The notes under the pieces were generated by a model. The model worked only from the letters and a program-made list of their open reading frames with translations, was not told the origin of the DNA and made no database searches. 34,159 nucleotides of DNA, taken from IMG/VR virus record IMGVR_UViG_3300046002_003840, positions 1 to 34,159 of that record; one strand, 5' to 3'. The translations under genes were made by a program, and so were the position numbers. Below, in pieces: positions 2,977 through 22,291 of this stretch; position 1 is the first letter of the stretch, and each line of letters opens with the position of its first letter. Origin of the DNA: a virus.

Positions 2977-2977
2977 T

Positions 2978-4216: not shown

Positions 4217-4582
4217 ATGAGATTTGATAAAGATAAATTAATAGAAGAGGTAGTTAGGATGAGAATAAAAGACTTAGCCTCTACCTCTACTATTTTAGAA
4301 TATGTAATGAAGGAGGCTAATGTTAAACAGGCACAGGCTTATAACTATTTAGCTGACGCACAGGCAATAATTGCTAATATGTATAAAGATATAAGAAAGG
4401 CAGCATTAGAAGAGGCGATAGCACAAACGCAAACATTATTGGAGCAGGCAGAAACTATTGCTGATAAGTTGAAGGTAAGACAAGAGTTGAGCAAGCTACA
4501 AGGACTTTATGTTGATAAAATAGAACATAGTGGTGAAGTTAGTATTAAAACAATAAGATTATTAGGACCAGATGAAGGATAA
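4217..4582 (+). CDS. terS: Terminase small subunit
   Basis: A protein of 121 residues directly before the large terminase, overlapping it by 11 bases. The N-terminal part (about 15-50) can form a helix-turn-helix (STILEYVMKEANVKQAQAYN), as expected for binding the packaging site. The middle (about 60-100) is a Gln/Glu/Ala-rich helical region (EEAIAQTQTLLEQAETIADK) suited to ring oligomerisation, and the tail (IKTIRLLGPDEG) may contact the large subunit. Assignment rests on position, size and architecture rather than a strict signature. Confidence 0.8.
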   Translation: MRFDKDKLIEEVVRMRIKDLASTSTILEYVMKEANVKQAQAYNYLADAQAIIANMYKDIRKAALEEAIAQTQTLLEQAETIADKLKVRQELSKLQGLYVDKIEHSGEVSIKTIRLLGPDEG

Positions 4583-5738
4583 TTTAGACATACAACATAC
4601 AGTAGTATTTAGTCGCAATCTTAAAGCATATGAAAATGGTAAAAGATTTATATGTAATCAAGGTGGTAGTAGAAGTTCTAAAACATATTCTATAATCCAA
4701 CTGTTAATATATCTATGTTTAGTTACACCAAAGTTACAGGTATCAGTAGTTAGAAAATCTTTTCCTGCGCTTCGTGGTTCTGTACTACGAGATTTTGTTG
4801 AGATAATGAATGAATTAGGATTATATGATATAAATAACCATAATAAAACAGAACAAAGATACATATTCTCGAATAAGGCAAGCATAGAGTTTTTCTCAAT
4901 AGATGATAGTCAGAAGGTAAGAGGTAGAAAAAGAGATATATGTTATTGTAATGAAGGCAACGAACTGACACGAGAAGATTATTTACAATTAAATATGAGA
5001 ACCTCTAAATGTTTATTTATAGATTTTAATCCATCTGATGACGAACATTATTTATACGAATTAATGAAAGAAGATAATGCTATATTAATTAAATCTACAT
5101 ATTTAGATAACATTTATTTAAGTGAGGATATTAAAAAAGAAATAGCAAACCTTATAAATGTGGATGAGAACTATTATAAAATATACGCATTAGGTGAGCG
5201 ACCTATACCAAACACAAGAATATATACACATTTTAGGCAAATAGAATTAATGCCGCCAGTTGATGATTGGTGTTATGGTATAGATTTTGGTTATAATCAC
5301 CCTACTTGTTTATTAAAAATAAGTTGGTCTGATGGTAATGTTTATGTAAAAGAAGAATTATATAAATCCAATTTAACCAGTCAAGATATTATAAAAGAAA
5401 TGAATAATTTAGGTATAGATAAAAAGAAATATTGTTTTGCCGATTACGCACGACCAGAAATAATAGAAGATTTAAGGCGTGCTGGTTATAATATGAAAGA
5501 AGCAGTCAAAGATGTAAAAGAAGGTATAATGTCTGTTAAAATGAATAAGATATTTGTAGATAAGACAAGTTTAAATGTATGGAAAGAGTTTAAAATGTAT
5601 TCTTGGAAGACAAATAAAGAACAAATATTAGATGAGCCAGTTAAATTATATGATGATGCTATGGACGCATTGAGGTATGCAATATATACAACAGAAAAAA
5701 GAGGTAGATATGATAAAAAATATGTAGGTTTCTTTTAG
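4572..5738 (+). CDS. terL: Terminase large subunit, packaging ATPase and nuclease
   Basis: A protein of 388 residues. Walker A is GGSRSSKT at 31-38, and a Walker B-like ICYCNEG with catalytic Glu is near 120-127. The RNase H-like nuclease domain shows its three acidic positions: Asp near 238 (YGIDFGYNHPT), Asp near 290 (FADYARPE) and Asp near 361-364 (DDAMDALRYA). This is the pattern of PBSX/Terminase_3 family enzymes. It pumps DNA into the prohead at the portal and cuts concatemers. It follows and overlaps the small subunit gene. Length is slightly short for the family, but all motifs are present. Confidence 0.95.
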   Translation: MKDNLDIQHTVVFSRNLKAYENGKRFICNQGGSRSSKTYSIIQLLIYLCLVTPKLQVSVVRKSFPALRGSVLRDFVEIMNELGLYDINNHNKTEQRYIFSNKASIEFFSIDDSQKVRGRKRDICYCNEGNELTREDYLQLNMRTSKCLFIDFNPSDDEHYLYELMKEDNAILIKSTYLDNIYLSEDIKKEIANLINVDENYYKIYALGERPIPNTRIYTHFRQIELMPPVDDWCYGIDFGYNHPTCLLKISWSDGNVYVKEELYKSNLTSQDIIKEMNNLGIDKKKYCFADYARPEIIEDLRRAGYNMKEAVKDVKEGIMSVKMNKIFVDKTSLNVWKEFKMYSWKTNKEQILDEPVKLYDDAMDALRYAIYTTEKRGRYDKKYVGFF

Positions 5739-5796
5739 AAAACCATTTTATTAATTTAATATATAAATAATAAACACAAAAATAATATATATAAAT

Positions 5797-6384
5797 ATGA
5801 GATTCAAATTTGAAGAAGCTGAGTATAATATGACAACCAATTGGAGTGATATGACTATGAGGCAGTTTATTGATTTAAACAAAATACAAGAAAAACAAAA
5901 GGTGTTAGCCATGTCTGATGATATACTAACTCAACAATTAGTAGAAGTTTTAGCAAAGGTAGATATAGGTGTATTTGATGAGATGTCTTATGGTCAATTA
6001 TGTGAGTTAGCTGTACCATTAGTTGAATTAATGAATAGTTTAAATAGTTTAAATGCTGTTAACATTACACCACCATTATATTTTGAAGTAGGTGGTATCA
6101 ATTATAGTTACAAACAAAATGCTTTTGATTATAATGTTGGTGAAGTGAGTGATATAAAGACAATGATAACTAATAAAAAGAATGATTGGGATTATTTGGC
6201 TGATATAGCATCAGTAATGATAAGACCAGCTACCAAAGAAGTAACAGAAGGTGGTACAGAATATTGGAAGTTAATAAAAAGAAATCCGTTAGATTTTGAA
6301 TCTAATAAAAGAGTAATACTATCTATGAAATTGGTAGATGTAATACCAGTCATTAATTTTTTTTTGAATGGATTGCTGAAATAG
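5797..6384 (+). CDS. Tail assembly chaperone-like protein, zero-frame product
   Basis: A 195-residue protein. The first half (DMTMRQFIDLNKIQE, LTQQLVEVLAKVD) is helical and resembles the N-terminal part of gpG-type tail assembly chaperones, although the match is structural rather than a clear family hit. Near its end the message runs over nine T residues at 6357-6365, and a second frame then stays open for about 80 codons with protein-like composition. The layout copies the lambda gpG/gpGT pair, in which a small fraction of ribosomes make a longer chaperone. The location is unusual: right after the terminase rather than before the tape measure gene, which lies 12 kb away. Confidence 0.65.
   Translation: MRFKFEEAEYNMTTNWSDMTMRQFIDLNKIQEKQKVLAMSDDILTQQLVEVLAKVDIGVFDEMSYGQLCELAVPLVELMNSLNSLNAVNITPPLYFEVGGINYSYKQNAFDYNVGEVSDIKTMITNKKNDWDYLADIASVMIRPATKEVTEGGTEYWKLIKRNPLDFESNKRVILSMKLVDVIPVINFFLNGLLK
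6357..6366 (+). promoter_or_regulatory. Probable -1 ribosomal frameshift site
   Basis: In the zero frame the T run reads as U UUU UUU at 6357-6363, then U UUU UUG at 6360-6366. Both match the X XXY YYZ rule for -1 slippage. The zero frame stops at 6384. The -1 frame has no good start near the site, only an internal ATG at 6468, so slippage is the natural way to express it. A single-base sequencing error in the nine-T run is the alternative. Confidence 0.7.
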
Positions 6385-6608
6385 ACAAAAGATACGAAAA
6401 GTTATATTCAAGTAGAGGTGGTGATGGATTTGCTCCAAAAATACCAGAAGAATTTGGTTGGCACTCAATGATAAATAGATTAGCCAAAGATGATATAACA
6501 AAATTTGAACAAGTAGTTGAACTAAATTATATAATGGCACTTAACCAACTATCATTATGGTATTACCAAGACAAAGTAGAAGAGTACCACATAAAAAAGA
6601 AAAAATAA
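6357..6608 (+). CDS. Tail assembly chaperone extension in the -1 frame
   Basis: After a -1 slip, translation continues as FFFEWIAEIDKRYEKLYSS and ends with a Lys-rich tail (EEYHIKKKK) at TAA 6606-6608, one codon before the next gene. The segment is helical (DDITKFEQVVELNYIMALNQ) and would extend the zero-frame chaperone to about 270 residues. The open frame, its proper ending at the next start codon and its plausible amino-acid composition make it real coding sequence. In known systems the extended form binds the tape measure protein through its extra domain. Confidence 0.7.
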   Translation, partial: FFFEWIAEIDKRYEKLYSSRGGDGFAPKIPEEFGWHSMINRLAKDDITKFEQVVELNYIMALNQLSLWYYQDKVEEYHIKKKK

Positions 6609-8342
6609 ATGAATAATACATTAAGCCTAAATAAAATAATAGATATATTCTATTCGGTAGCCATGAATAACAAAATGGTGAACGATTATTTCTTTGGCAC
6701 ATCATATAATATTAACTCAGCTAATGAAAGAAGATATCCTTTAATTGCTGTTGAACCGACTAACTCAACAGTTACAAGTTCAGGTAATGGTGGTGCGAGT
6801 AGAATGAATGTATATTTACATACCTTTAATGTTTATGCCTTAGATAGAGTAGCAAAAGGTGATGCTAATTTTAATGAATTACTATCAGACATGCAGTTCG
6901 TATTACAAACCTTTATAACACAAATAGATCAACATCCATATTATACTGATTTAGGTATGATGTTTGATGGTGATATTAATTTACAACCAGTTTTTGAAGT
7001 AGAAGATGATAATGTAAATGGTTGGATGGCTTCAATTACAATTAAAGTACCAAATAAATATACACCTTGTTCTACACCACAGATACCTATTTTAGGTTGG
7101 ACTACATCTTATAATAATGGAACAAATCAATTAAGATTAGTAGGACCACAAGGACCTACTGGACCGGCAGCAACTATACAAGTAGGTTCTGTAAGTACAT
7201 CAGGTAGTGTGCCAACTGTTACAAATGTTGGTAATTCTTTTAGTGCCATATTTGACTTTACATTTCCTGCATCATCTGGTGGTGGTAATTTACAACAGAC
7301 ACTTTTATTAGGTAATACTGCGAGTTTAGGCTTTCAATTATATGAAGGTAGTTTAATAGATTTGAATGATAATTTTGGTAACACAAACACACTTGGAGCA
7401 GCAAATATAAACATTTCTAATAATATTGGTGATGAAGTATTAATAAATAATCAAGGTATAGAAATTGGTAATACATCAAGTTCTATTAGTATTCAGAATA
7501 GTAGTATTGTTAAATTAGATAAAGTAAGTGGTGCTGAAACTGTATTAAACTTCAATCAAGGTACACAATCTCTTTCTAAAACAATTTTCTTTCCTGATAA
7601 TGGTGGTACTATCGCTTTATTGAGTGATATAACTGGTGGTAATTTACAACAGACACTTACATCAGGTAATACATCGAGTTTAAGTATAGAATTATTAAAT
7701 GGTGCATTTCAATCATCTGGTTCAGGTGGCGAATCAGGAACTTTGGTTTCATCTGGACTTCAACTTATTGATAGTTTAAATCAATCAGTAGTAACTGCAT
7801 TTTCTGTTAAAGTTGAATCAGCATTATCTAATATCGAAATGGATGATACAAAAATAAGAAAAGTTGATCCATCAGATGGTAGATTTACTGATTTAGTTTT
7901 TGACCAGACAACAGCAGGAGCGGTTAATACAATAACATTTCAAGATGGCACAGGTACACTCGCTTTCTTATCAGATGTAGTAGCAGGACCACAAGGACCA
8001 CAAGGAGCAAAAGGTGATAAAGGTGATAAAGGTGATACAGGCAGTCAAGGACCTATCGGACCTATCGGAAATACAGGTAGTCAAGGAACTATCGGAAATA
8101 CTGGTAGTCAAGGACCTATCGGACCTATTGGTAATACAGGTAGTCAAGGACCTATCGGACCACAAGGAGCAACAGGTTCTGATTCAACTGTGCCAGGTCC
8201 AATAGGACCAACAGGTCCGCAAGGCGCAGGAGTTCAAGGTTCAATAGGTCCGACAGGTTCAATAGGAGCGACTGGATCAATAGGAGCAACAGGTTCAATA
8301 ACACCGGCTTATGGAATATATTTAAGTTACAATTTTAGATAA
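6609..8342 (+). CDS. Tail-terminator-like domain fused to collagen-like fibre
   Basis: A protein of 577 residues with three parts. Residues 1-160 look like a tail terminator or tail completion protein ([43 protein letters not shown]). A first short collagen patch ([10 protein letters not shown]) near 180 leads into two repeated beta segments, each opening with GNLQQTLL or GNLQQTLT. From about 460 to 563 there are more than 20 Gly-X-Y triplets. Collagen triplets form trimeric rods in phage fibres. Fusing one to a terminator-like domain would place thin fibres at the head-tail neck, like whiskers. The C-terminal [10 protein letters not shown] is a short tip. The terminator assignment is by pattern only; a plain tail fibre is the alternative. 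Confidence 0.65.
7986..8300 (+). repeat. Collagen-like repeat tract (Gly-X-Y)
   Basis: DNA here is built of near-repeats of aggacctatcgga- and ggtagtcaa-type units. It encodes an unbroken run of about 22 Gly-X-Y triplets ([18 protein letters not shown]), then a second, looser block ([12 protein letters not shown]) to about 8300. Such tracts change length easily by slippage, so fibre length may vary between related phages. Confidence 0.9.
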
Positions 8343-8366
8343 AAAAATAAAAAAAAATAAAAAATT

Positions 8367-8786
8367 ATGTCAATTAATAATTCACCAATTTTTATAGCAG
8401 CACCGAGAGTTCAATCTGCTATATCAAATGCTGCCTCAGGTAGAGATGGAACAACAGGAAATTTGTTCTTGTTATGCACACCTGGATCAAATGGTTCAAG
8501 AATAGAAAGAATCACAGCAATAACCACCGGCACTATGAGTTCGCCAACAAGTGCTATGGCAATAAGAATTTACATTCAAAATGTAGATGATCTTACAAAT
8601 TATTTATATAGAGAAGCAGTATTTCCAATAGTAACACCCGGTACAGGTATAGTAGGTCCAAATACAACATTTAATTTTAATGGTGGCTTATGTTTAGGTA
8701 CTCAATCTAAAATATATGTAGGTCAATCAACATTTGCTGATGCTGATGATAGAGTAAGTTGGACTTGTGAGCTTGGTGATTTCTAA
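8367..8786 (+). CDS. Putative virion decoration or fibre-associated protein
   Basis: A 139-residue protein predicted to be mostly beta strands, rich in Gly, Thr and Ser (AITTGTMSSPTSAMAIRIYI, TPGTGIVGPNTTFNFNGG). The layout suggests a compact beta-sandwich, as in head decoration or baseplate accessory proteins. It follows the collagen fibre gene and precedes another structural gene, so virion location is likely. No catalytic motif is seen, and exact placement on the particle is not determined. Confidence 0.6.
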   Translation: MSINNSPIFIAAPRVQSAISNAASGRDGTTGNLFLLCTPGSNGSRIERITAITTGTMSSPTSAMAIRIYIQNVDDLTNYLYREAVFPIVTPGTGIVGPNTTFNFNGGLCLGTQSKIYVGQSTFADADDRVSWTCELGDF

Positions 8787-8805
8787 AAAAAAATAATATA
8801 ATAAT

Positions 8806-9027
8806 ATGAAACAAATATGGATAGGAATCCTTAATGGATTAAACTCTGGAAAACCAGTTAAAACTATATCAGTTCTTTATGATAAGGTTGATGTAAGAAT
8901 GCCTTATGATCCTTCTTTCACAGAAGTGAAAAATTTACTTGTAGAAAAAATAGAGGCGATTATAGCAAGTTTGCCAGATGATCCAATAGAAGAATCAACA
9001 GAAACAGAACAACCGAATAATGAATAG
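8806..9027 (+). CDS. Small acidic-tailed hypothetical protein
   Basis: A 73-residue protein overlapping the next gene by eight bases. The N-terminal half may form strands (KQIWIGILNGLNSGKPVKTI), and the tail is acidic (DDPIEESTETEQ). The family is not recognised. Position between two structural genes suggests a small virion or assembly protein, possibly a chaperone for the following protein. Confidence 0.6.
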   Translation: MKQIWIGILNGLNSGKPVKTISVLYDKVDVRMPYDPSFTEVKNLLVEKIEAIIASLPDDPIEESTETEQPNNE

Positions 9028-10081
9028 AGGAATGTATAATGCCAATAATGGTGTTATTGGAAACATATGGAGACAAAAAGTCTCACCATCGGCGAAACAA
9101 GGAACTCATCCAGCACCTCAACTGGATGAGGATACTTATAACCTTTTTAATGCTTGGAACTTTAATTTACCTGATAATGCGGATGATATAAATAACTTTA
9201 TTATAAATCTAAAATGTGAATTAGGTATTCAACAATTGAAGGATGTTTTTGATTGTTTTTATGTACTGGCGGCTGCTACACAATCACAAAGTTTAATAAA
9301 TTGGGCTCAACCTGGTACTTATGATTTAACAATAGGTAATACAGCGAGTCCTCAATTTGGTTTAGTATTTACTACATTAAAAGGATGGAGAACAACCGGT
9401 GTGGCTACTACTGGTTTCTTAAATACAAACTTTAATCCAAATGCGGTTGTATGTAATTTTAATAATAATGTTGAACCATATGATCCTACAAAAGAATCAG
9501 CCACTCAGTCGGCTATGAATTATGGTGGAGTAATGGGATTTTATACAAATGAAATGCCAACAAGACCAGGTGGATTTATTTATGATATGGGTTCATCAGC
9601 AGGACAAAATGGATTAAGTGGTATTGTATTAGCGACACTAAATCAAACTACTGCTTATCAATTACAATTATATGGCAATAGAACCAGTATTGCTACTAAT
9701 AATCCTATTTATGGTGGTACAACAGATACATCACAATTATATTCTAATCCATATGGATTTTATTCAATAAGTAGAGAAAATAATACATTAGTTAGTAATT
9801 TGATGTATAATTATTATGTTAATGGTATGTTATTTACTACAAATATTGCGGCACCTAACTTTTCTCAGGTGGCAACTGCTTCAACTTGTGCTGGTCCGAT
9901 TATATTTCCTGGTATTAATGTAGCAAACACATTCACAGGTGTTACAAAAATAACAAATGGCAGTACTCAAAATAGATATGCTTTTGTTTTTATAGGTAAT
10001 AAATCAATAGACCAAACTATATTATACAATAATCTAAACAATTATTTAACATCAATAGATGCGGCAATGACAAATAGTTAA
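9020..10081 (+). CDS. Putative structural protein, possibly receptor-binding
   Basis: A 353-residue protein. The N-terminal 80 residues are helical and charged; the rest is strand-rich with many Asn, Thr and Gly residues. It has a lectin-like look (GLVFTTLKGWRTTGVATTGF, YGFYSISRENNTLVSNLMYN, RYAFVFIGNKSIDQTILYNN), similar to concanavalin/LamG-type jelly rolls in phage receptor-binding proteins. That match is by eye. It lies beside the collagen fibre and decoration-like genes. Two perfect hairpins in its first coding 110 bases (9070-9084 and 9105-9130) may affect translation. Confidence 0.55.
   Translation: MNRGMYNANNGVIGNIWRQKVSPSAKQGTHPAPQLDEDTYNLFNAWNFNLPDNADDINNFIINLKCELGIQQLKDVFDCFYVLAAATQSQSLINWAQPGTYDLTIGNTASPQFGLVFTTLKGWRTTGVATTGFLNTNFNPNAVVCNFNNNVEPYDPTKESATQSAMNYGGVMGFYTNEMPTRPGGFIYDMGSSAGQNGLSGIVLATLNQTTAYQLQLYGNRTSIATNNPIYGGTTDTSQLYSNPYGFYSISRENNTLVSNLMYNYYVNGMLFTTNIAAPNFSQVATASTCAGPIIFPGINVANTFTGVTKITNGSTQNRYAFVFIGNKSIDQTILYNNLNNYLTSIDAAMTNS
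9070..9130 (+). other. Two hairpins within the start of a coding region
   Basis: GAGAC/GTCTC with an AAAAA loop spans 9070-9084. CTCATCCAG/CTGGATGAG with an eight-base loop spans 9105-9130. Both are perfect stems in the first 110 bases of the gene at 9020. The second is a nine-base-pair stem with more GC than its surroundings. A role in translation or RNA processing is possible, but no T tract follows, so this is not a terminator. Confidence 0.45.
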
Positions 10082-10091
10082 TATATAGAAT

Positions 10092-10217
10092 ATGAGTAAA
10101 GAAGAATTAATAAAAGAAACCGAAGCTATATTAAAATTGGTTAATAAAGATAGCCGAATAGGTAACTATTTAGAAGAAATTAAAAAATTATTAGAAGGTT
10201 TAGATATAAATAAATAA
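10092..10217 (+). CDS. Small hypothetical helical protein
   Basis: An open frame of 41 codons from ATG 10092 to TAA 10217, filling most of the gap between two structural genes. The product is a single amphipathic helix by appearance, with leucines at regular spacing (LIKETEAILKLV, YLEEIKKLLEGL). The start is preceded by an A/T-rich stretch like those of its neighbours. A small assembly factor is possible; the function is unknown. Confidence 0.5.
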   Translation: MSKEELIKETEAILKLVNKDSRIGNYLEEIKKLLEGLDINK

Positions 10218-10233
10218 AAAGATATATATTAGT

Positions 10234-10743
10234 ATGGCACTATCAACATTTTATTTTAAGAAGGCAATTGAAAAGTTTGGTGAAGCATATATTAAAGAAT
10301 TAACTAAACAATTAATAATAGCTGATAAAAAGGCAAGCGGTGAATTAATAGAAAGTTTAGATTATCAATTAACAGAAACTTCTAATGAGATTTTATTGAA
10401 AATAACCGCTAATGCCTATTTAATAAATGTAGATGAAGGTAGAAAAAAAGGAGCCAGAATGCCACCTGGTCCAAAGATAGGTAAATGGGCTAAAATAAAA
10501 GGATTAGGACTAACTCATAAGGGTATTAAATATAAAAATTATGAACAAGTTGGTTGGGCCATATCAAGAGGTATAAGTAGAAATGGTATAAAACCAACAA
10601 ATGTTTTAGAAAAATCAAAAACTGCCCTATTTAATAATAAAAAAGTAATGGATGAGTTAGCAAATGGTGGTTTACTTGATTTAAATAAATTAATAGATGA
10701 TACCTTCAAAGACCTTAAACAAATAAATATAAAGAAAATATAA
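10234..10743 (+). CDS. Head-tail joining protein, HK97 gp10-like
   Basis: A 169-residue protein. The N terminus is a Lys-rich helix. A strand block (NEILLKITANAYLINVDEG) then leads into a basic, Pro/Gly-rich loop (RKKGARMPPGPKIGKWAK), and the C terminus is helical. The combination of a short strand ending in DEGR and a following basic loop is typical of HK97 gp10-like neck proteins, also called virion morphogenesis proteins. It overlaps the next gene by one base. Assignment rests on this pattern and on context. Confidence 0.6.
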   Translation: MALSTFYFKKAIEKFGEAYIKELTKQLIIADKKASGELIESLDYQLTETSNEILLKITANAYLINVDEGRKKGARMPPGPKIGKWAKIKGLGLTHKGIKYKNYEQVGWAISRGISRNGIKPTNVLEKSKTALFNNKKVMDELANGGLLDLNKLIDDTFKDLKQINIKKI

Positions 10744-12503
10744 TGGCAACAGCATCATACACAAGACCACAAATATCAATTAATCAAACACCATCTAAGT
10801 TTAGTCCAGTCTATGCGCCAAATTGGTTTGCATTTACGGCATCTTTTGTTAACACAACTGCTACCGATCCATTCTTAATATGTGATATAAATATTCTAAA
10901 TCAAGCAATACAAGCGCCTACTGTATCAACAGCATTAGGTAGATTTAAAACACCTGGTAGAGAGAATAACTATTTTGTATTTAATCCAGAAGCAGTTATA
11001 AAATCTTATGTATCATATCCATATGAAACAGGTAATCAAACCTATTATGGTATAGGACAGGCAGAATATGTTAACGAACAGGCTGGTTGGGGTGCGCCTT
11101 TAAATAATTTTCCTACTATTGCACCAGAAACTGATGGTATAGTAAAATATAACATGAGATTTGGTTTAGAGTTTAATCCTAATGCCACATTTTCAAGTAT
11201 TAATCCAGTTGGAGCAATTGGACCTGATGGTGTATATAGAGATTATTCAAGATATAAAATAGCTGGTACTAACTCTTTTGCAAATGTAGGTGATATAATA
11301 ACAATTAAAACTACTTCTGGTTTATATACTTACTATGACGGACAAGCACAAGTAATTAATGCATTCACTTTAACAGGTGACACATATATAGAAACTTGGC
11401 AAATAAATAGTCCAACGCTAAATAGTTTATCAAGCGGTAATATAGTAGGACAATTTACTAATATACAAAAAATATATGGTACAACTTCTACCTATTATGG
11501 TTATAATGGTACAAGACAATATGATGAAGTTAGTGTTAACTTTGATAATATATATTATTTTAGACAAAATGGTGCAGTATCACCTGGATTTATATTATCA
11601 AGTTCAACTGCATCCAATTTTAGATTTATGAACGATTATGGTTATGATATGGCTCACGCTATACCAATTAGACCAGGACAAGGTGAGAGAGCAAGATTTT
11701 TATGTGATTTATATGCCGATACAAATAGATTAGTAGCCTTAGAAGTAGTAGAATATAACGCATACGGTGGTACTGTATCAACTTATCAACATATTCTAAC
11801 TGATACTATATCTGGTACATTATATCCTTACAAATGCTTTACAGTTCAATTATTTGATAAAAAAGGTAGATTCGCAAGTAATGCAACGACCACAGGCACA
11901 CCAATAGTAGTAGGTAATTATTATAAGTTTAGTATAAAAGGTTATTTAACAGCTACAACTACACAATTTAACTATGCATCAATATGGTATAAGGCAGAAA
12001 ATCCTTGTAGTCGTTATGAAAATGTAAGAATTAAGTTCTTAAATAGACAAGGTACATGGGCTTATTGGAATTTTAACAAGGATAATAAACAAACTACTAC
12101 TATTGAAAGAAAAGAATTTAAGTCACCAACACAATATGATAGAAGATTAGTAGGTCCAGCAGGATCAGTAGTAAGTTCAACTTCAATTGCTAATCCATTT
12201 AGAATTAGTAAATTAAGAGGACAAAATATTCTATCAATTACCGCAACTGATGAATTCCAAATGAACTCTGATTGGATTAGCGAAGAAGAATATGAATATT
12301 TACAACAATTAATAACAAGTCAGCAGGTATTCTTATTTTATGATACATATACATTAAAGGATAACTCAGTATTAGAATGTGTAAATATACCAATTGTAAT
12401 AACTGATACCAATTTTGAATTTAAAACTACTAATAGAAACCAATTATTCAATTTAGTGTTAAATTATAAAATGGCACAAGATTATAGCATTCAGAATCCG
12501 TAA
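10743..12503 (+). CDS. Large tail/baseplate structural protein
   Basis: A 586-residue, strand-rich protein with many Tyr, Asn and Thr residues and no enzyme motif. The C-terminal 150 residues (VRIKFLNRQGTWAYWNF, LRGQNILSITATDEFQMNSD, WISEEEYEYLQQLITS) resemble a domain common in distal-tail proteins of Bacteroidota phages. With the 1070-residue gene downstream it may form the tail tip or baseplate. The stop codon is followed closely by a structured, GC-richer repeat at 12506-12562. A fibre or adhesin is the alternative. Confidence 0.55.
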   Translation: MATASYTRPQISINQTPSKFSPVYAPNWFAFTASFVNTTATDPFLICDINILNQAIQAPTVSTALGRFKTPGRENNYFVFNPEAVIKSYVSYPYETGNQTYYGIGQAEYVNEQAGWGAPLNNFPTIAPETDGIVKYNMRFGLEFNPNATFSSINPVGAIGPDGVYRDYSRYKIAGTNSFANVGDIITIKTTSGLYTYYDGQAQVINAFTLTGDTYIETWQINSPTLNSLSSGNIVGQFTNIQKIYGTTSTYYGYNGTRQYDEVSVNFDNIYYFRQNGAVSPGFILSSSTASNFRFMNDYGYDMAHAIPIRPGQGERARFLCDLYADTNRLVALEVVEYNAYGGTVSTYQHILTDTISGTLYPYKCFTVQLFDKKGRFASNATTTGTPIVVGNYYKFSIKGYLTATTTQFNYASIWYKAENPCSRYENVRIKFLNRQGTWAYWNFNKDNKQTTTIERKEFKSPTQYDRRLVGPAGSVVSSTSIANPFRISKLRGQNILSITATDEFQMNSDWISEEEYEYLQQLITSQQVFLFYDTYTLKDNSVLECVNIPIVITDTNFEFKTTNRNQLFNLVLNYKMAQDYSIQNP

Positions 12504-12505
12504 GA

Positions 12506-12562
12506 TAACGGCACACCAACTTTTACTTGCGACTATCGCTCGTTATTGGACTCGCTGTCGCC
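12506..12562 (+). repeat. Structured intergenic element, copy A of an inverted pair
   Basis: This stretch is much richer in G and C than its surroundings. It aligns, with gaps, to the reverse complement of 13311-13366: shared CGGCACAC, a TTACT-GCG block, a short hairpin and a CTCGC box. The hairpin is GCGA-CTA-TCGC at 12529-12539 here and GCG-AAGA-CGC at 13336-13345 in copy B, so pairing is kept while sequence changes. TAACG at 12506-12510 can pair with CGTTA at 12541-12545. The pair brackets the gene at 12582. Confidence 0.6.
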
Positions 12563-12581
12563 AAAAAATAAAGTGAATAAT

Positions 12582-13106
12582 ATGATAGATAAGATAAAGA
12601 ATATAATTATAGTAATGCTGCTATTTCTGATAGGCTTCTTTGTGTTAAATGAACAAAAGAATATAGTGTATAGGGATAGAATAAAGTATGATACAATCAA
12701 CTTAAAATCATTTGTTGAAGTTAAATCTAAACCAATTATAATTAACCATATTAAACATGATACAACCGAATTACCACCACATATAGATACGGTTAAAGTA
12801 ATAGATTCTTTTTATTCTAAAAATATATATATGGATACCATAAAATCAGGTAATAATAAAATAATTATAAATGATACACTACAAAAAAATCAAATAATAG
12901 GCAGATCTGTTAAAATAGAATTGGAGAACATAATGTTAAAGCCAATAAAGCAGAAAACACAGACAATATTATATTGTAATCCAACCTATAATGGGTCATA
13001 TAATATGAACTTAATTCTAATGCGAAATAATATAGGAATAAGTGGTGGTATATCTTCACGAGGGACACCATCAATAGGTATAATATTTAAATTAAAAGCT
13101 ATCTAA
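12582..13106 (+). CDS. Membrane-anchored periplasmic protein, spanin-like candidate
   Basis: I chose the ATG at 12582 (174 residues) because an in-frame ATG at 12546 lies inside the structured repeat. Residues 7-24 form one transmembrane helix (IIIVMLLFLIGFFVL) behind a short basic N terminus, giving a signal-anchored protein with a periplasmic tail. The tail is strand-rich with Asp-Thr repeats (YDTINL, HDTTEL, IDTVKV, MDTIKS) and a glycine-rich end (GISGGISSRGTPSIGIIF). Such one-helix proteins in Bacteroidota phages may act as inner-membrane spanins or tail-related factors; neither is proven. Its stop codon sits in the loop of a terminator hairpin. Confidence 0.6.
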   Translation: MIDKIKNIIIVMLLFLIGFFVLNEQKNIVYRDRIKYDTINLKSFVEVKSKPIIINHIKHDTTELPPHIDTVKVIDSFYSKNIYMDTIKSGNNKIIINDTLQKNQIIGRSVKIELENIMLKPIKQKTQTILYCNPTYNGSYNMNLILMRNNIGISGGISSRGTPSIGIIFKLKAI

Positions 13107-13120
13107 GGGTAGCTTTTTTT
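13094..13120 (+). terminator. Rho-independent terminator after the membrane protein gene
   Basis: AAAAGCTA at 13094-13101 and TAGCTTTT at 13110-13117 form an eight-base-pair stem with an eight-base loop, followed by T residues to 13120. The loop contains the stop codon at 13104-13106. It closes the upstream tail transcript before the long gap to 13440. Confidence 0.75.
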
Positions 13121-13243
13121 GTGTTAAGAAGTAGGTATACTAATAGTAAAGCAAAAGATCTGCAACATCTATGATATAATATAGAATAATAATAAACAAT
13201 AAATAATAAATAATAATAATAAATATATAATAGTAACAATTCT

Positions 13244-13297
13244 TATATCCAATGCCAGAACCATAATAGATACTGACATCTCCAAGCACAAAAATCA
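13244..13297. repeat. Dispersed repeat, copy 1
   Basis: Bases 13250-13272 match 33633-33655 exactly over 23 bases, the shared core being CAATGCCAGAACCATAAT plus five more. With one mismatch the match extends left to 13244, and it continues right through a short hairpin (AGATnnnnnnATCT), an AGCA block and an AAAATCA block. Both copies are preceded by an A/T-rich repeat tract. Coding is unlikely because differences fall on all codon positions. Confidence 0.85.
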
Positions 13298-13310
13298 CAT
13301 TTGCTTGTAG

Positions 13311-13366
13311 CGGCGAGCAACACAACTACCAGTTGGCGAAGACGCAGTAAGAGTATAGTGTGCCGG
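13311..13366 (-). repeat. Structured intergenic element, copy B of an inverted pair
   Basis: The reverse complement begins CCGGCACAC and follows the same order of blocks as copy A at 12506-12562, including the GCG-TCTT-CGC hairpin and a CTCGC box. A further hairpin, CAACT-ACC-AGTTG, is at 13323-13335. The pair is inverted around the membrane protein gene, about 0.8 kb apart. Confidence 0.6.
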
Positions 13367-13439
13367 TATTCAATTAATTATAAAAAAGCAAAAATAATCT
13401 TTTTAAAATTAATATATATAAATATAAATAAACATAATT

Positions 13440-16400
13440 ATGGCATTAGAAATAATAGTTAAGCAAGATACTTTTAATACGGTATTAGATATATTTCAAG
13501 ATGAATCATTTGAGGTAACTTATTCAATTAACACAATAAAAGATATATCACAGAGTAATGGTTCATATACAAAAACTATATCATTACCAGACACACCTAA
13601 AAATAGGCAAGTGTTTGGCTATGCCACTAACTTATCAACCAATTTAGAGTTCAATTCAACTACATCATTTACACCAGTAGCAAATAGATATAATCCTAAT
13701 AAGAAATTAAGATGTAATGTATTAGAGGATGGTATAAATGTATTAGAAGGCTATATACAATTAACAAAATACCTTATAAATGAGTATAATAAGTCAATTG
13801 AGGCTGTAATATATGCTGATAACACTTCATTTTATATCAATATGGGTGATAAGCTACTTACTGATATAGATTTTAGTGAATATAACTTTACATTTAACTT
13901 AACAAGTATAACTCAATCGTGGAGTAATGATTTATTTTCTTATAACAGAGGTGTTTATTTTCCTTTAATAGATTATGGCTATGGTTGGACTCTAAATGAT
14001 ATATCAGGATTCTCAGCAACAGGCTCATATGGTTTATCTTTTAAGCATTTTAAGCCAGCCACATATATTAAAACTATTTTTGATAAAGTGTTTCAATCAA
14101 ATGGATATAATTATCAATCAAAGTTTTTAGGCACAAATAATTCAGCAAATAGCGGCACAACGGTATCTTTTGCGGATCCAAGATTTGGTGGTTTAGTTAT
14201 ACCATTTAGTAATCCTAACTTCCAGTCTGATGCTATGATTACACAAGATAAGATATTCTTTGTAGGTCTATCTGCTTCAACTATAAGTCAATATAGTACA
14301 TACGATGTAGATTTTTATCAAACAAAATGGGGTACGGCATCTGCACCACCAATAAAAGCAATTGTAAATGCGAGAGGTATAGACACAGTACTTTTTCCTA
14401 TAGCCAATAATGGACTAAAAAAACTATGGTATAATGCTTATATGTTAAGTCCGTTTGATTTACCAGCACATATAGCATCTAAAAATGCTTACTTAAATAA
14501 TACCTCACCATTTTATATTTACGATTCGAAAACGATTCCGTTTACGAGAGCCACAAATCCACTATTTAACACAACGGTAGGATCAGCATCAACTTATAAT
14601 TTAACAGCGAGTCATTATGAAAACTTATCAGGTACGGTATTTAAGCAAAGATTTGTTGTAAATACCGATATATTGACAAATTATTCATTACAATATAACT
14701 CAGAAAATGGTGTACCAAATAGCACAACAATAACAACACAATCTTATAGATATGTAATGAAGGTTGAATTCTTCCGTTCAAAAAATCCAATAACAGGAGC
14801 AGATGATCCAACTTGGGCGACAGGTACAGGTTATAGAATACCAGGTGACTTTGGTGGTGCATTAGGTATAACATCATCTGCAAGAGTTGTAGATATAGGT
14901 GATATACCAGAAAAAATAGTTCACTGGATTGCAGATAAAAATGGTAATTCAAACTGCTTTACGAGAGGTAAAAAAATAATTGTACCACAAGGACCTAATA
15001 GATATTTAGGAGAATTCTGCACTGACGAAAGAGGATTTACAGCATCACCACCGGCTAAAAATGGTAATAATAGATTTAGATTTAATAGTGGAGATGCTTT
15101 GGCATTTTATTATAATGATGGATATAATCAACCAAATACCAGATTACAAGGTTTATGGGCCAGTGGTGTTAATCCTACAACATTAGTAGATCCATATAAT
15201 GTGGATTTTCAAGCAACACATCAGCCGGGTTATGGTGATTGGTATCAAGATTTACAATTACAAACTATATTTTTAGATGGTGATGATTTTGATCCTTTGT
15301 ATGGTAATTCAGGTAGTATAGTTCTAAATGGTAATAGACCTATTCTTCCAAACGAAAAAGTAAGAGTTGTGTTTACATTTGGTTGTAAATATGGAGGACA
15401 ACAGATGCAAGACCCTGGATTAGGTTTAACACCAACTGCTGCAAATAATAACTTTACATCATATAAACCACCGATGGTTGCCTATTTATTGACAGGTACT
15501 GACCTTGCTGGTTATAATAATGGTTCAGATGCTGATCCAAAAACTAAGTTCTGGAATGATATATCACCAGATTATATACCAGGTATGACGGTATCTTTTG
15601 TAGATTGTATACCAAAAAATCTTAAACAAAGAGATTTTATTCAGGATATAGTTAGGATGCATAATCTTTATATTGAGCCAACTAAATTAAGTAAGATACC
15701 GAACCAACTTATAATAGAACCAAGAGATGAGTATTATACATTAAGTTCTGATATTTTAAATTGGACTAATAAGTTAGATATATCAGAACCAATTGATGTT
15801 AAATTACTGGCTGAAACACAATATAAGAGAACATTATTTACATTTAAAGAAGATGGTGACTATTATAATAAACAATATAAGCAAAATACTAATGAAAATT
15901 ATGGACAATATATTTATAGTATAGATAATGACTTCTTAACGGATGAATTAAAGATAGAATCTAATTTTTCACCAACACCAATGAGTCCTTTATACGCAAT
16001 ATCAACCACAGGTACACCAATTTTAAGAACAGGTGGATTTATATTACCAGTTTTCTTATCAGGAGATAATGCTAAATCATCTTCTAATGGTGGTAATAAT
16101 ATTACAAATGTAAATTATAGGATTTTATATAGAAAATATATAAAAACAAAAAATGAAGATAAGATTTATATATTCAACGGTTTAACTGATACATATCCAT
16201 ATGCTGGACCATATGACGATCCATATACACCAACATATGCTGTAAATTGGGGACAAACAAGAGGTGAATTCTTCCCAGTAGCAACAGATCAGTTCTTTGA
16301 AAATCTTGTAAATAACTATTGGGCGTCATTATTATCAGAATTAAGTGATATGGATTCAAGATTTGTAACTTGTAAAATGTTCTTAATGGCAGAAGATATA

Positions 16401-16652
16401 AATAACTTTTATTTTTATAAACAAATCTTATTAACGATAGATGGTGTAGATGGATATTATAAAGTAAATAGTATAGAAGGATTTACACCAGGTACAAATA
16501 ATTTATGTACTGTTACTTTATTAAGATCTAACTCAAATCTACCAAGAAAAACATATCAAGGTTCAACAAATACACCTCGTTCAACCAGTATATATCTTGT
16601 AAGTGGTGGTGGTGCATCAATACCAACATCAGGTGGATCACCAACATTCTAA
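13440..16652 (+). CDS. Large baseplate/tail hub-like protein
   Basis: The longest plus-strand product, 1070 residues. The N-terminal 130 residues (LPDTPKNRQVFGYATNL, VLEDGINVLEGYIQLTKYL) match the style of tail-tip or hub proteins seen in Bacteroidota phages. The middle is strand-rich; the C-terminal 100 residues (FYFYKQILLTIDGVDGYYKV) end in a Gly/Ser/Thr-rich tail. No lytic or protease motif was found. A location at the distal tail is inferred from size, position before the fibre and tape measure genes, and the N-terminal resemblance. The ATG at 13440 follows a long A/T-rich leader. Confidence 0.65.
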   Translation: MALEIIVKQDTFNTVLDIFQDESFEVTYSINTIKDISQSNGSYTKTISLPDTPKNRQVFGYATNLSTNLEFNSTTSFTPVANRYNPNKKLRCNVLEDGINVLEGYIQLTKYLINEYNKSIEAVIYADNTSFYINMGDKLLTDIDFSEYNFTFNLTSITQSWSNDLFSYNRGVYFPLIDYGYGWTLNDISGFSATGSYGLSFKHFKPATYIKTIFDKVFQSNGYNYQSKFLGTNNSANSGTTVSFADPRFGGLVIPFSNPNFQSDAMITQDKIFFVGLSASTISQYSTYDVDFYQTKWGTASAPPIKAIVNARGIDTVLFPIANNGLKKLWYNAYMLSPFDLPAHIASKNAYLNNTSPFYIYDSKTIPFTRATNPLFNTTVGSASTYNLTASHYENLSGTVFKQRFVVNTDILTNYSLQYNSENGVPNSTTITTQSYRYVMKVEFFRSKNPITGADDPTWATGTGYRIPGDFGGALGITSSARVVDIGDIPEKIVHWIADKNGNSNCFTRGKKIIVPQGPNRYLGEFCTDERGFTASPPAKNGNNRFRFNSGDALAFYYNDGYNQPNTRLQGLWASGVNPTTLVDPYNVDFQATHQPGYGDWYQDLQLQTIFLDGDDFDPLYGNSGSIVLNGNRPILPNEKVRVVFTFGCKYGGQQMQDPGLGLTPTAANNNFTSYKPPMVAYLLTGTDLAGYNNGSDADPKTKFWNDISPDYIPGMTVSFVDCIPKNLKQRDFIQDIVRMHNLYIEPTKLSKIPNQLIIEPRDEYYTLSSDILNWTNKLDISEPIDVKLLAETQYKRTLFTFKEDGDYYNKQYKQNTNENYGQYIYSIDNDFLTDELKIESNFSPTPMSPLYAISTTGTPILRTGGFILPVFLSGDNAKSSSNGGNNITNVNYRILYRKYIKTKNEDKIYIFNGLTDTYPYAGPYDDPYTPTYAVNWGQTRGEFFPVATDQFFENLVNNYWASLLSELSDMDSRFVTCKMFLMAEDINNFYFYKQILLTIDGVDGYYKVNSIEGFTPGTNNLCTVTLLRSNSNLPRKTYQGSTNTPRSTSIYLVSGGGASIPTSGGSPTF

Positions 16653-16666
16653 AAATAATAAAATAT

Positions 16667-17989
16667 ATGTCACAACTTTTTGTAGCACAAGTACCTCGTA
16701 ATGTCCTTTTTAGTGGTTATGATAATGAAACTCAAACCAATAACGGTATTATATTAGGTTCAAGAAATAAATCTTATTCTAAACTATTTAACATAAATGG
16801 TGATGATAACTTAACCACTGACGAAGGATCTAAAATAGTCAATGGTAATAATAATGCTGTATATGGTGGTGCCCTACTAAACGGCAGTTTTAATTCAATT
16901 AACGGACAATTAGTTTTTATAACAGGTAATTCAAATAATATATCAGGAACTAATATATCACTATTAGGTAATAATAATAGTTCATTATCTTATTTTATAA
17001 ATAAAGATTTAATTATAAATGGTAATAATAATATAGTAAGCGGTGAATCTGTATATGTAAATGGTTCAAACAATGTAACACAAGATACAAAATATAATTA
17101 TATTTTAGGTAATAATAATACTATACAAGGTGGTTATATTGCGCCAGATTTATCAGGATTTACAGATTCATCAACCAGTTCTGTTATACCATTATATTCT
17201 AATAATAGTAAATTATATCTTAATGGTGATTATAATGTAATAGCAACTTATTCAAATGATGTGCAGTTATATGGTAGTTATAATAGTGTAGGTTCGTCAG
17301 CAAGTAATTTGTTTATAATAGCAAACTCTCAATCTATAACCGATTCAAATCAATTTTATATAGGACCAGATAAAGATGTAAATATAAAAGGAGCAGTTTT
17401 GCCTTGTAATCTTATACAGACTTATACTCCTAATAATTATACAGATCCATTTGGTGTGTCTGGTAGTATAGTAAAAGATGATGAAAATATCTATGTAAAA
17501 ACTGATGGACTTGGTTGGAGACAAATACCTTTTAATAATTCTTATGGTAATTTTTATGATACTTCGATTCAAACAAATCCAACAGCATCTACCGCAAATA
17601 AAATGAGATTTAATTCAACCGCTGATTCTAAAACAATTAATATTGTTAATGATGATATTTATGTTGATTATGATGGTTTATATAATATACAATTCAGCGC
17701 ACAATTTGATAAAGCAGGTGGTGGTATAGATGATGCTGATATATGGTTAAGATATAATGGAGTAGATGTGCCTTGGTCTAATACAAGAGTAACATTAGCA
17801 GGTAATAATGCCAAAGTGGTTGCTGCTTGGAACTTTTATCAACCGATGACAGCCTCATCATATTTTAATTTAATGTGGAGTTCAGTGGATACAGATGTGA
17901 GAATATATTCACAAGGAACACAGAGCAATCCGACAAGACCGGCAATACCATCAGTTATTTTAACGGTGGATAAAATATCATCAATATAA
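16667..17989 (+). CDS. Tail fibre: solenoid repeats and jelly-roll tip
   Basis: A 440-residue protein. Residues 40-215 carry repeating N-G-N/S-N-N units (IVNGNNNAVYGG, LLGNNNSSLSY, IINGNNNIVSGE, YVNGSNNVTQ, ILGNNNTIQGG), as in left-handed beta-solenoids of trimeric adhesins. The C-terminal 140 residues (DDIYVDYDGLYNIQFSAQFD, then DADIWLRYNGVDVPWSNT) look like a C1q/TNF-type jelly roll, often the receptor-binding tip in phage fibres. The two parts together suggest a trimeric host-binding fibre. It follows the hub-like gene by 14 bases. Confidence 0.7.
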   Translation: MSQLFVAQVPRNVLFSGYDNETQTNNGIILGSRNKSYSKLFNINGDDNLTTDEGSKIVNGNNNAVYGGALLNGSFNSINGQLVFITGNSNNISGTNISLLGNNNSSLSYFINKDLIINGNNNIVSGESVYVNGSNNVTQDTKYNYILGNNNTIQGGYIAPDLSGFTDSSTSSVIPLYSNNSKLYLNGDYNVIATYSNDVQLYGSYNSVGSSASNLFIIANSQSITDSNQFYIGPDKDVNIKGAVLPCNLIQTYTPNNYTDPFGVSGSIVKDDENIYVKTDGLGWRQIPFNNSYGNFYDTSIQTNPTASTANKMRFNSTADSKTINIVNDDIYVDYDGLYNIQFSAQFDKAGGGIDDADIWLRYNGVDVPWSNTRVTLAGNNAKVVAAWNFYQPMTASSYFNLMWSSVDTDVRIYSQGTQSNPTRPAIPSVILTVDKISSI

Positions 17990-18013
17990 ATATAAAAAAA
18001 ACTATATATTAAT

Positions 18014-20644
18014 ATGGCAACAAATAATAAAAAGATTGAATTAGATATAGACGCTAAAATAAATGCGGCATCTGCAACGGATGATTTAAGAAAATTAACC
18101 AGATTACTCAAAGACTTAAACTCTGAATTAAGTGCTATTGATGAAACATCGGCTGATTTTAATAGGTTAAAAGACTCTATTGGTGAAGTAGAAGGCAAAA
18201 TTGGTGACGCTTCTGATAGATTAAGAACTATTACAGGTGAACCATTAGAAAGAGTTAACGCTGGTTTAGGTTTAGTTGGTGAAGGTTTGAAAAATCTTGA
18301 TTTTACAAAAGTATCAATAGGTATAGATGGTTTAGCAGATGGTATTACTAAGTTTAGTTCAGCTAATTTTAGTGAAAGTATAGGAAAGGCAAAAACCTCA
18401 TTGGGTAATTTAGGTAAAGCATTGATGTCAAGCAAACTTTTATTAGCTGGACTTGGTGTTGGCGCTGCTGTGCTTGCTTTATCTGCTTTAAGTGATAAAG
18501 GTGGATTAGCAGGTAAAATGTTTAAGTCTTTAACTGGTATATTAACTGGTGTTAAGGATGGTTTCTTACAAATGACAGATTCTATTGGATTAACTGATAC
18601 AAAAACCAAGATTTTATCTGACTCATTTTTAAGATTAACTGCTGATGTCAATAGCACAAATGATGCTATGGAGCAAATTGCTACTGCTGGTGGTATGGCA
18701 CATTATAATTTAATGGTTGAAAAATTAAATAATAATATAGGTGTAGCACAAGGTGATTTAGAAGCATATATTAAATCATTAGGATTAGAACAAATACAGA
18801 TTGAAAACTTAAATTATGAGTTTGATAGATATTTAGAAATAAAAAAACAAATGGGTTTACCTGGATCTGATTTGAAAAAATTAGCATCTGATTTATTACA
18901 AATTGAGAAAGCTATTAAATCAATAGTAGGTGATGATAAAGAATCTGAGGCATTAATAGCTAAGAAAATTAAACTAAATGATGCTTTAATAAAAAAGAAT
19001 ACAACAGTTGCAGAGGAGGCTAATAAAGCTGCAGTACAATCTTATGATATACAAACACAACTTGATGAGGCATTTGATAATTTAATAACCGACTCAACGC
19101 AAAGAGAGATAGCACAAGTTAAAACCAAATATAAAAAAATAAGAGAGTTTGATTTATCTAATTTACAAGAAAAATTAAAAGATCAAAAAAGAATAGCAGA
19201 AGAAAGTATAAACACGGTAACTACACAGATAGAAACCACAAGATTAGAATATACAACACGATTATCATTAGGTCAAGATGCGGCTGCTAACGAAAGTAAA
19301 TTAAAATTAGAAGGATTACAAGAAGATAAGAAAATAAATGAGGATAATTTAAAGTCTGCAAATCAACAATTAGAAGATTCTAAAAAATTGGCTACTACAT
19401 ATGCTACTTTGGAGCAAAGAGAGATTGATAAAATTATATGGAAATCACAAGCAGATAGAGCTAAAATAGAATTAGAAAAAACAAGAGAGGCACAAGCTGT
19501 TTTAACAGATGAATCTAAACTACAATCTGGTAAAAAGATGGAACTTTATGATGCAGAAGAAAAAAAGATATTAACATATTATAGTAATTTATTAAAATTG
19601 GCTGATAATGCTAACGAAAGGGGACAAATAGATTTAGATTTAAAGAAAGATTTAGATGCACTTGATATAAAAAGATATAATACATTAGTTAATTATAATA
19701 AAAAACGAGAAGAAGGTGATAATAAAGATGAGGAAAACAAACTAAAACAAATTAAGTATGAACAAGATTTATTAGATGCAAGGATTAATACCGCACAAAA
19801 TCTAATAGATATTAATAATGTTAGAATTCAAGAATTAAATTCTACTGCTAATCAATATAAAAATGTTTTAGAAGACGAAACTGACGCATTAATAGAAAAT
19901 TATGGTAATCAATTATTCTTACTTGAAGCACAAAAACAAAAAGAGTTAAAGTTAAATGAAGATAATACCATCAATCGTAAAGAAAAGGAATTAGAAATAG
20001 AAGCAAAATATAATGCGTTAATAAAAAAATCCGGTTTAGATACAGCAGAAGCAATTACAGCGGCTAAAATTAAAGAGATTGATAGACAAATGTCATATTT
20101 TAAGGCTGGTTTAGAAGGTGCCACTTTATTGGCTGATATAGCACAAAATATAGATGATCAAAGAAGAAAAGATGGAGAAGAACAATCATTTAAGGCTGCT
20201 TCAAAAGAGTTTGTAATTAGACAAGGCTTAGCCGCTGCTGGTGTAATAATGAGTACATCTGAATCTGTTATGAAATCTGTTGCTGCTTCACCATTAACTG
20301 GTGGTATGCCGTGGACGGCTATAAATATAGGTATGGGTGCCTTACAATTAGCAAAAATACTTACAACTAAGTTTAATTTTAATGGAGGTGGTGGTAGTGT
20401 TGCTGGTGCTGGTGGTGGTTCAACTAATGTAACAGCACCAGATATGGCACAGACACCAAAGAATCCATTTTTTAGTCAAGGTTATATGAATCAAAATATA
20501 GGACCTAATGGTATGGTTGGATTTAGACCAGGTAAGGACAACAGCATGATAAAAGTAGGTGTTTACGAAAGTGATATAAGAAATGTTATGAATAAAGTTA
20601 ATGTTTTAGAAACAAGATCGACTTTATCAGGAGCAGGTAATTAA
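18014..20644 (+). CDS. Tape measure protein
   Basis: An 876-residue protein with the usual tape measure layout. The helical N terminus has heptad-like Leu/Lys patterns, and a hydrophobic glycine-rich segment lies near 140-160 (KLLLAGLGVGAAVLALSAL). A long charged coiled coil runs from about 220 to 700. A second hydrophobic stretch is near 735-790 (GLAAAGVIMSTSESVMKSVA), followed by a Gly/Ser-rich linker. It sets tail length and may form part of the DNA channel. The frameshifted chaperone pair that usually precedes it is instead at 5797. A minus-strand open frame at 17839-18657 is its shadow. Confidence 0.88.
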   Translation: MATNNKKIELDIDAKINAASATDDLRKLTRLLKDLNSELSAIDETSADFNRLKDSIGEVEGKIGDASDRLRTITGEPLERVNAGLGLVGEGLKNLDFTKVSIGIDGLADGITKFSSANFSESIGKAKTSLGNLGKALMSSKLLLAGLGVGAAVLALSALSDKGGLAGKMFKSLTGILTGVKDGFLQMTDSIGLTDTKTKILSDSFLRLTADVNSTNDAMEQIATAGGMAHYNLMVEKLNNNIGVAQGDLEAYIKSLGLEQIQIENLNYEFDRYLEIKKQMGLPGSDLKKLASDLLQIEKAIKSIVGDDKESEALIAKKIKLNDALIKKNTTVAEEANKAAVQSYDIQTQLDEAFDNLITDSTQREIAQVKTKYKKIREFDLSNLQEKLKDQKRIAEESINTVTTQIETTRLEYTTRLSLGQDAAANESKLKLEGLQEDKKINEDNLKSANQQLEDSKKLATTYATLEQREIDKIIWKSQADRAKIELEKTREAQAVLTDESKLQSGKKMELYDAEEKKILTYYSNLLKLADNANERGQIDLDLKKDLDALDIKRYNTLVNYNKKREEGDNKDEENKLKQIKYEQDLLDARINTAQNLIDINNVRIQELNSTANQYKNVLEDETDALIENYGNQLFLLEAQKQKELKLNEDNTINRKEKELEIEAKYNALIKKSGLDTAEAITAAKIKEIDRQMSYFKAGLEGATLLADIAQNIDDQRRKDGEEQSFKAASKEFVIRQGLAAAGVIMSTSESVMKSVAASPLTGGMPWTAINIGMGALQLAKILTTKFNFNGGGGSVAGAGGGSTNVTAPDMAQTPKNPFFSQGYMNQNIGPNGMVGFRPGKDNSMIKVGVYESDIRNVMNKVNVLETRSTLSGAGN

Positions 20645-20673
20645 AAAATTAAATAAAAATAATATATATTATT

Positions 20674-21654
20674 ATGAAAAAACCAAAATATGATACAACA
20701 AGATTACCATTATATGACATTGAAATAGGTGATGATGAAGATGTAACTGGTATTAAGTTTATATCAATTGTAGCAAAACCAGCAATAGAAGTTAAAGGTA
20801 TAGCATTTAATGATGAAGATGAGGAACCAGATGCGGATTGTAGTGATTTACATGAGCATGATTTTGCTGATACATTTTGTGACAATCCACCATGTCATCC
20901 AAATTGTGTATGCTTTATAGACGATAGAGGATATTGGCAAAATAAACCATACGCTACTAAAACTGGTGTATGTCCTGTTTGCAAAGCTAATAAGAAAAGA
21001 TTTAATAGCAAACTTTATGGTAAAAGAGTAAGCGAAAGTAAAAACTTCTCAATGGAATTTGCAGTAAAAGAAGATCAACAGATTTTAGCAGGACCTACTA
21101 TGATACCTTATAAGAATATTTATAGGTCAGACGAATCTGGTGAATACATGGTAAGATTTACACCAGACACAATTAAAAAAATAGTTCAAAAGTTTTTTAA
21201 GAATAATAATAATTCGTCTATAAATGTAGAACACACTAATGAAATGGTTAAAGGTTATATAACCGAACACTGGATAGTAGAAGATCCAATGTATGATAAA
21301 TCAAAATTATACGGATTTAATCTACCAGTTGGCTCACACTTTATGTTAGTTAAAATAGAAGATGAAAAGTTTTGGCAAGAACAAGTTAAAGGTGAAAATA
21401 AAAAAGGATTTAGCATAGAAGGTATATTAGGACAAAAGTTAGTAAGCATGTCTAAAATGTTAAATATGGAAGAATTTATTGATTCATTGACAGAAATAGA
21501 ATTAGCAAGTATTTTATCATTTGTTGAACCTGGTAAAAAAGAAACAGAAGATGAGTTTATTGGTAGATGTATACCTTATGTTATAAATGATGGTACAGCA
21601 AAAGATAACTCTCAGGCTTACGCCATATGCAAAACTAAATGGGACACAAAATGA
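20674..21654 (+). CDS. XkdF-like prohead protease with Cys-rich insert
   Basis: A 326-residue protein. The segment from about 125 to 260 (KEDQQILAGPTMIPYKNIYR, INVEHTNEMVKGYITEHWIV, ENKKGFSIEGILGQ) fits the XkdF family of phage serine proteases that mature the capsid; the conserved His (VEHT) and Ser (GFSIEG) are likely catalytic. The N-terminal opening FISIVAKPAIEV is typical of Bacteroidota versions. Residues 50-115 form an unusual insert with eight cysteines, including HPNCVC and CPVCK. The first recalls the C-terminal HPNCRC signature of Mu gpF-type minor head proteins. It overlaps the lysozyme start by four bases and precedes scaffold and capsid genes. Confidence 0.75.
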   Translation: MKKPKYDTTRLPLYDIEIGDDEDVTGIKFISIVAKPAIEVKGIAFNDEDEEPDADCSDLHEHDFADTFCDNPPCHPNCVCFIDDRGYWQNKPYATKTGVCPVCKANKKRFNSKLYGKRVSESKNFSMEFAVKEDQQILAGPTMIPYKNIYRSDESGEYMVRFTPDTIKKIVQKFFKNNNNSSINVEHTNEMVKGYITEHWIVEDPMYDKSKLYGFNLPVGSHFMLVKIEDEKFWQEQVKGENKKGFSIEGILGQKLVSMSKMLNMEEFIDSLTEIELASILSFVEPGKKETEDEFIGRCIPYVINDGTAKDNSQAYAICKTKWDTK

Positions 21655-22246: not shown

Positions 22247-22291
22247 TTTTACTGAAAAGTAAAAAAATAAAAAATAATTGTATATATAATT

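Follow-up and report, generated by a model that had tools for sequence, protein, structure and literature searches.

The window, as we call the whole 34,159-base virus record analyzed here, carries 126 identical bases close to both ends, indicating that the genome is probably circular, with a length of about 34.03 kb. It encodes terminase, portal-like, XkdF-like protease, collagen-repeat, and holin proteins, as well as a tRNA-Met at 27785, the sole match from Rfam and tRNA searches of the window. Promoters of the host-type form TTTG-N19/20-TATCTTTG are found before minus-strand genes only, and this form suggests a Bacteroidota host. An MjaI-type restriction endonuclease-like gene at 84-650 and an N6/N4 DNA methylase gene at 2978-4189 possibly constitute a phage-borne restriction-modification pair. 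Two regions of this genome share a repeat, and the features around its two copies are as follows.

12504-13370, plus strand: lineage-specific insert with copy 1, about 867 bp, outer limits approximate; in relatives, the genes on either side are adjacent or nearly so
12505-12566, plus strand: left imperfect inverted end of the insert, an inverted match to 13304-13369 (11/12 in the outer 12 nt)
12582-13106, plus strand: 174-amino-acid ORF with an N-terminal hydrophobic stretch, the cargo of the insert, without homologue in relatives
13094-13117, plus strand: terminator-like hairpin after the 174-amino-acid ORF
13175-13249, plus strand: A/T-rich tract preceding copy 1 (19% GC over 13107-13240)
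13250-13297, plus strand: copy 1 of the repeat unit, a direct repeat with the exact 23-base core at 13250-13272; the gapped alignment ends at 13297
13304-13369, minus strand: right imperfect inverted end of the insert; the joined ends fold with z of about -4.1
32412-33581, plus strand: ORF-A, 389 amino acids, with which copy 2 goes; ORF-B takes its place in haplotype B
33582-33632, plus strand: A/T-rich tract preceding copy 2, starting at the ORF-A stop (7% GC over 33582-33626)
33633-33679, plus strand: copy 2 of the repeat unit by alignment, with the exact core at 33633-33655; absent in L002 and G003
33677-34150, minus strand: GIY-YIG nuclease gene (PF01541, E = 5e-7), 98 to 99% identical in L002 and G003; an alternative start is possible at 34066
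33703-33745, plus strand: strong terminator-like hairpin with a T-run closely following copy 2, within the 3' end of the GIY-YIG gene (z = -7.1)

The two copies align without gaps over 55 nt (13239-13293 versus 33622-33676) at 84% identity, with 9 of 55 sites different, and the exact 23-mer CAATGCCAGAACCATAATAGATA begins at 13250 in one and at 33633 in the other. The earlier note was thus right to describe a repeat of about 54 bases with an exact 23-base core, recurring 20 kb apart in two noncoding regions, as both copies lie outside plausible genes. In a gapped alignment the similarity reaches back through the A/T tract and covers about 100 nt (13199-13297 versus 33578-33679). The A/T tract that had been pointed out before each copy is indeed present twice but ordinary, since gaps of at least 20 nt in this phage average 22% GC. 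A 21-mer of the core, with up to 3 mismatches allowed, occurs twice in the window versus 0.00 expected, and the longest repeat in third-order Markov genomes has a mean of 17 and a maximum of 21; shuffles and Markov genomes together exclude chance as the origin of the repeat. No convincing third copy was found in the window. Given 9 differing sites in 55, an unbroken run of 23 bases has a P of 0.044, meaning that a core conserved without a mismatch is no more than mildly unusual and gives weak evidence for activity there.

Does the repeat act as an RNA? The hairpin after the core had been said to keep pairing despite base changes, a description that the comparison of the copies contradicts: four of the five pairs of AGATA..TATCT are identical in both copies and therefore uninformative, the fifth pairs as A-T in copy 2 but is a broken A-C in copy 1, and the remaining base changes nearby fall in the loop or outside the hairpin, with no compensatory pair between the copies. 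The fold energy is no better than that of shuffles for the repeat units (z = +0.27 and +0.21) or for the hairpins (z = +0.04 and -0.25), and an alternative pairing on the minus strand with z of -1.9 in copy 1 is not kept in copy 2 (z = -0.2). Rfam yields no match to the repeat at gathering thresholds, and permissive matches are at chance level. On the pair comparison and the shuffle folds we rejected a conserved RNA hairpin, and with no structure beyond shuffles and no RNA family match, a structured RNA finds no support. A strong structure does lie near copy 2, but it is the terminator-like hairpin at 33703-33745, which is separate from the repeat.

Coding by the repeat fares no better. Small minus-strand ORFs stay open over both copies because the A/T tract yields no minus-strand stops; these ORFs have no support, and a shared minus-strand small protein was rejected, as the codon changes mostly replace the residue even though the frames agree. 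On the plus strand, both cores read ATG CCA GAA CCA TAA TAG (Met-Pro-Glu-Pro-stop-stop), coinciding with the exact core, which could mean a minigene serving as a leader peptide or ribosome trap. Its start context, however, scores -2.9 in copy 1 and -8.6 in copy 2, compared to medians of +2.4 for annotated starts and -7.6 for other ATGs, i.e., like ATGs that are not starts, and we rejected this candidate as hardly credible.

Copy 1 lies in DNA that relatives lack. In these relatives, the homologue of the gene at 10743-12503 is followed directly by the homologue of the gene at 13440-16652, with gaps, as read from the sequences, of at most about 115 nt and no ORF in them, whereas 936 bases separate the two genes in the window and hold the 174-amino-acid ORF, the terminator-like hairpin, the A/T tract, copy 1, and a GC-rich island. 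The GC-rich inverted ends reach a match score of 40 compared to a shuffle mean of 17.8 (standard deviation, 3.5), a score reached by 0 of 5,000 shuffles, and when joined they form one long helix. With such terminal inverted repeats, as in a transposon-like cassette, the insert is cassette-like. Its only ORF is the 174-amino-acid one, for which family searches returned nothing significant, and no transposase was found. As to a target-site duplication, only an asymmetric ATTCA repeat is discernible by eye; the relatives are too diverged to give an exact empty site. A group I intron was considered for the insert because of a P7-like pairing seen by eye and was rejected, since even permissive Rfam thresholds gave nothing in its favor.

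Copy 2 takes up precisely the gap from ORF-A to the GIY-YIG gene, so one copy does abut that gene, as the earlier note had it. Comparison of contigs of the same phage, which are metagenomic assemblies of one phage lineage with two repeat sites only, separates two arrangements. Contigs L001 and L003 have the locus as in the window, and copy 2 is seen only together with ORF-A (window, L001, and L003). Contig L002 is 99.9% identical over window positions 6-13474 and has a different gene, ORF-B, adjoining the GIY-YIG gene; ORF-B matches ORF-A at 27% identity in the best region, the stops of ORF-B and the GIY-YIG gene overlap, and copy 2 is absent, so that this one contig has copy 1 and lacks copy 2. 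G003, which shares its dataset with L003, has the same arrangement, with a complete 477-amino-acid ORF-B and no copy 2. The haplotypes converge again at 33679, on the final base of the repeat and at the GIY-YIG stop, and the terminator-like hairpin beyond it is kept in haplotype B (z = -6.0). The nuclease gene thereby stands at the border of similar and exchanged DNA, as at an exchange boundary associated with homing endonuclease genes (HEGs).

The same contigs do not support the repeat as a mark left by a mobile nuclease cassette, one of the earlier proposals. It had been suggested to look for relatives lacking the GIY-YIG gene and the repeat together; L002 and G003 lack copy 2 and keep the GIY-YIG gene, and no nuclease gene lies near copy 1. 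The repeat therefore tracks the swapped neighboring gene: copy 2 is part of the ORF-A module, with no link to the nuclease gene. Regions common to the haplotypes are 98 to 100% identical and the two copies differ by 16%, indicating that the copies are older than the swap.

In the leader before ORF-A (32320-32411), kept at 84% in haplotype B despite the swap of the gene after it, the stems AAGAGG/CCTCTT and AGTAGTTT/AAAACTACT cross and enclose an 8-bp hairpin GAGTGGAT/ATCCACTC, which may make a pseudoknot. An imperfect 49-nt direct repeat occurs twice, 56 nt apart, at 32222-32326, where the minus-strand genes and ORF-A diverge. A 1,166-amino-acid gene at 28398-31955, with SNF2 helicase and methyltransferase domains and internal 198-nt tandem repeats, is cleanly missing from haplotype G003, where other minus-strand genes also take up about 1.5 kb near 32251.

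What ORF-A does bears on the reading of the repeat as a replication origin or initiator-binding site, in which the A/T tract would unwind, the core would be bound, and copy 2 would lie by a possible replication gene. The combination of an A/T tract with a fixed core fits, and ORF-A and ORF-B (L141 5855-7288) have motifs that by eye faintly resemble family A polymerases and are distantly similar (E = 4e-4 to 6e-8) to ORFs of very large uncultured phages of 595 to 735 kb. However, ORF-A is recognized by no family library or PDB profile search, there is no switch of GC skew at copy 1, and haplotype B does without copy 2 although its ORF-B is present; we consider an origin improbable. An alignment-based search for more ORF-A relatives found the same phage only, and a structure model of ORF-A, with a mean pLDDT of 32, is not usable.

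Outside the window, known copies of the repeat are confined to contigs of the same phage. The exact 21-mer occurs in only 3 contigs of IMG/VR, each 99.9 to 100% identical to the window over long stretches, while shorter pieces of the core match elsewhere with unrelated flanks (an 18-mer in seven genomes and a 16-mer in ten other contigs). A terminase search gave 54 loci, of which 3 are the same phage and the rest are relatives at 27 to 67% identity; among these, covered as 36 records by DNA similarity and for the longer ones also by local alignment, neither the element outside the same phage nor homologues of the insert's inverted ends were found. The proposed search of Bacteroidota phages and hosts for the core thus returned same-phage contigs only and revealed no dispersed repeat family of phage or host. 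A host CRISPR repeat finds no sign either, with one match per contig, and a match to the crAss-like phage cr110_1 was set aside as mostly A/T tract. Some relatives have intergenic repeats of their own. G030 (L123 and L124) has five copies of CCTCTTATGTGCGTGGATTTT, at 553, 7394, 12574, 19335, and 23310, four of which lie at gene junctions and share an orientation, and G007, G008, and G009 (e.g., L113 13226-14840) have at least 4 intergenic copies of the promoter-like CCGTATCTTTATAGTATAG before small genes.

A simple account of two copies in one phage is neutral duplication, in which a functionless piece of intergenic DNA was copied a single time, for instance as break-repair filler beside the nuclease gene. 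The 16% divergence between the copies, the dispensability of copy 2, and the lack of structure and of wider conservation all agree with it, but the mismatch-free core and the location of both copies at module borders speak against it, and we hold this account to be doubtful. A transcription element specific to this phage (a promoter, a 5' leader, or an antitermination site) at the restart of a plus-strand transcription unit is possible but on balance unlikely. Copy 1 would then serve the operon at 13440-27794 after the terminator of the insert, and copy 2 would give rise either to a short RNA terminated at the 33703 hairpin or to read-through into the operon at 84-13106. Copy 1 does lie between a terminator-like hairpin and the next operon, a strong hairpin of that kind follows within 25 nt of copy 2, plus-strand units may use another signal than the TTTG-type promoters confined to minus-strand genes, and the relatives' own dispersed intergenic repeats include a promoter-like one. 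Against this, copy 2 lies where two genes converge, which would be unusual for a promoter, and haplotype B can do without it; furthermore, there is no hairpin or put/nut-like structure, and sigma-70-like matches are at chance level.

What both copies have in common is their position at the downstream border of accessory DNA. We therefore favor, with a probability of roughly 0.42, the explanation that the repeat is an intergenic linker that exchangeable modules carry at their 3' border. A linker of about 100 bp, made of the A/T tract and a unit of about 50 bp, would travel with swapped genes: copy 1 with the 174-amino-acid ORF in the insert with inverted-repeat ends, and copy 2 with ORF-A, which alternates with ORF-B beside the GIY-YIG gene. 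The latter border would be an exchange boundary of the homing-endonuclease type, a role of the nuclease being suggested by its position, and the swap would probably proceed via repair of breaks near the nuclease gene. Both copies may derive from a single linker common to phages of an unsampled pool, and the sole activity of the linker would be to provide homology for exchange. Several points count against the linker. It is seen at two sites in one phage lineage only, ORF-B does without such a repeat and hence does not need it, no donor phage carrying it was found, and the perfect 23-base core could mean, though weakly, a function there. The recombination site proposed in the earlier note survives in part: copy 2 ends where the haplotypes reconverge and copy 1 lies in an insert with inverted ends, which would place the repeat at borders of exchange without making it the site itself. 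That the A/T tract and core are a site for a trans-acting recombinase or transposase loading accessory genes into these phages is very improbable; if true, it would amount to integron-free, cassette-like capture, with a site at the 3' end of each captured ORF. Contigs of one phage population present a near-clean pair of haplotypes in which a short repeat lies right where genes are swapped next to a homing-type nuclease gene, and on a small scale this makes the exchange of phage modules at defined borders testable.

In lambdoid phages, boundary or linker sequences lie at module junctions. The repeat resembles them as a short intergenic sequence common to module borders and differs in having two copies in one genome, with no phage population found to share it. 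Nonautonomous transposon-like cassettes include MITE-like and moron inserts; the insert around copy 1 is similar in its inverted-repeat ends, cargo, terminator, and lack of a transposase, but its ends are only about 65 to 70% matched, without a clear target duplication, and copy 2 has no inverted ends. The nut RNA sites of phage lambda are short elements with two copies per genome, one before a long operon. HK022 put is likewise a short element with two copies per genome, one before a long operon (PMC9378689); unlike put and nut, the repeat described here has no stable stem-loops and one of its copies is dispensable. Nuclease genes at boundaries of genetic exchange between phages, often near DNA polymerase genes, have been described as HEG-islands (Barth et al. 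2023, PMC10448857). That work concerns nuclease genes rather than a short edge repeat tied to one allele; as in HEG-islands, a GIY-YIG-domain gene stands at the edge of the replaced gene, and here both alleles occur in the same dataset.
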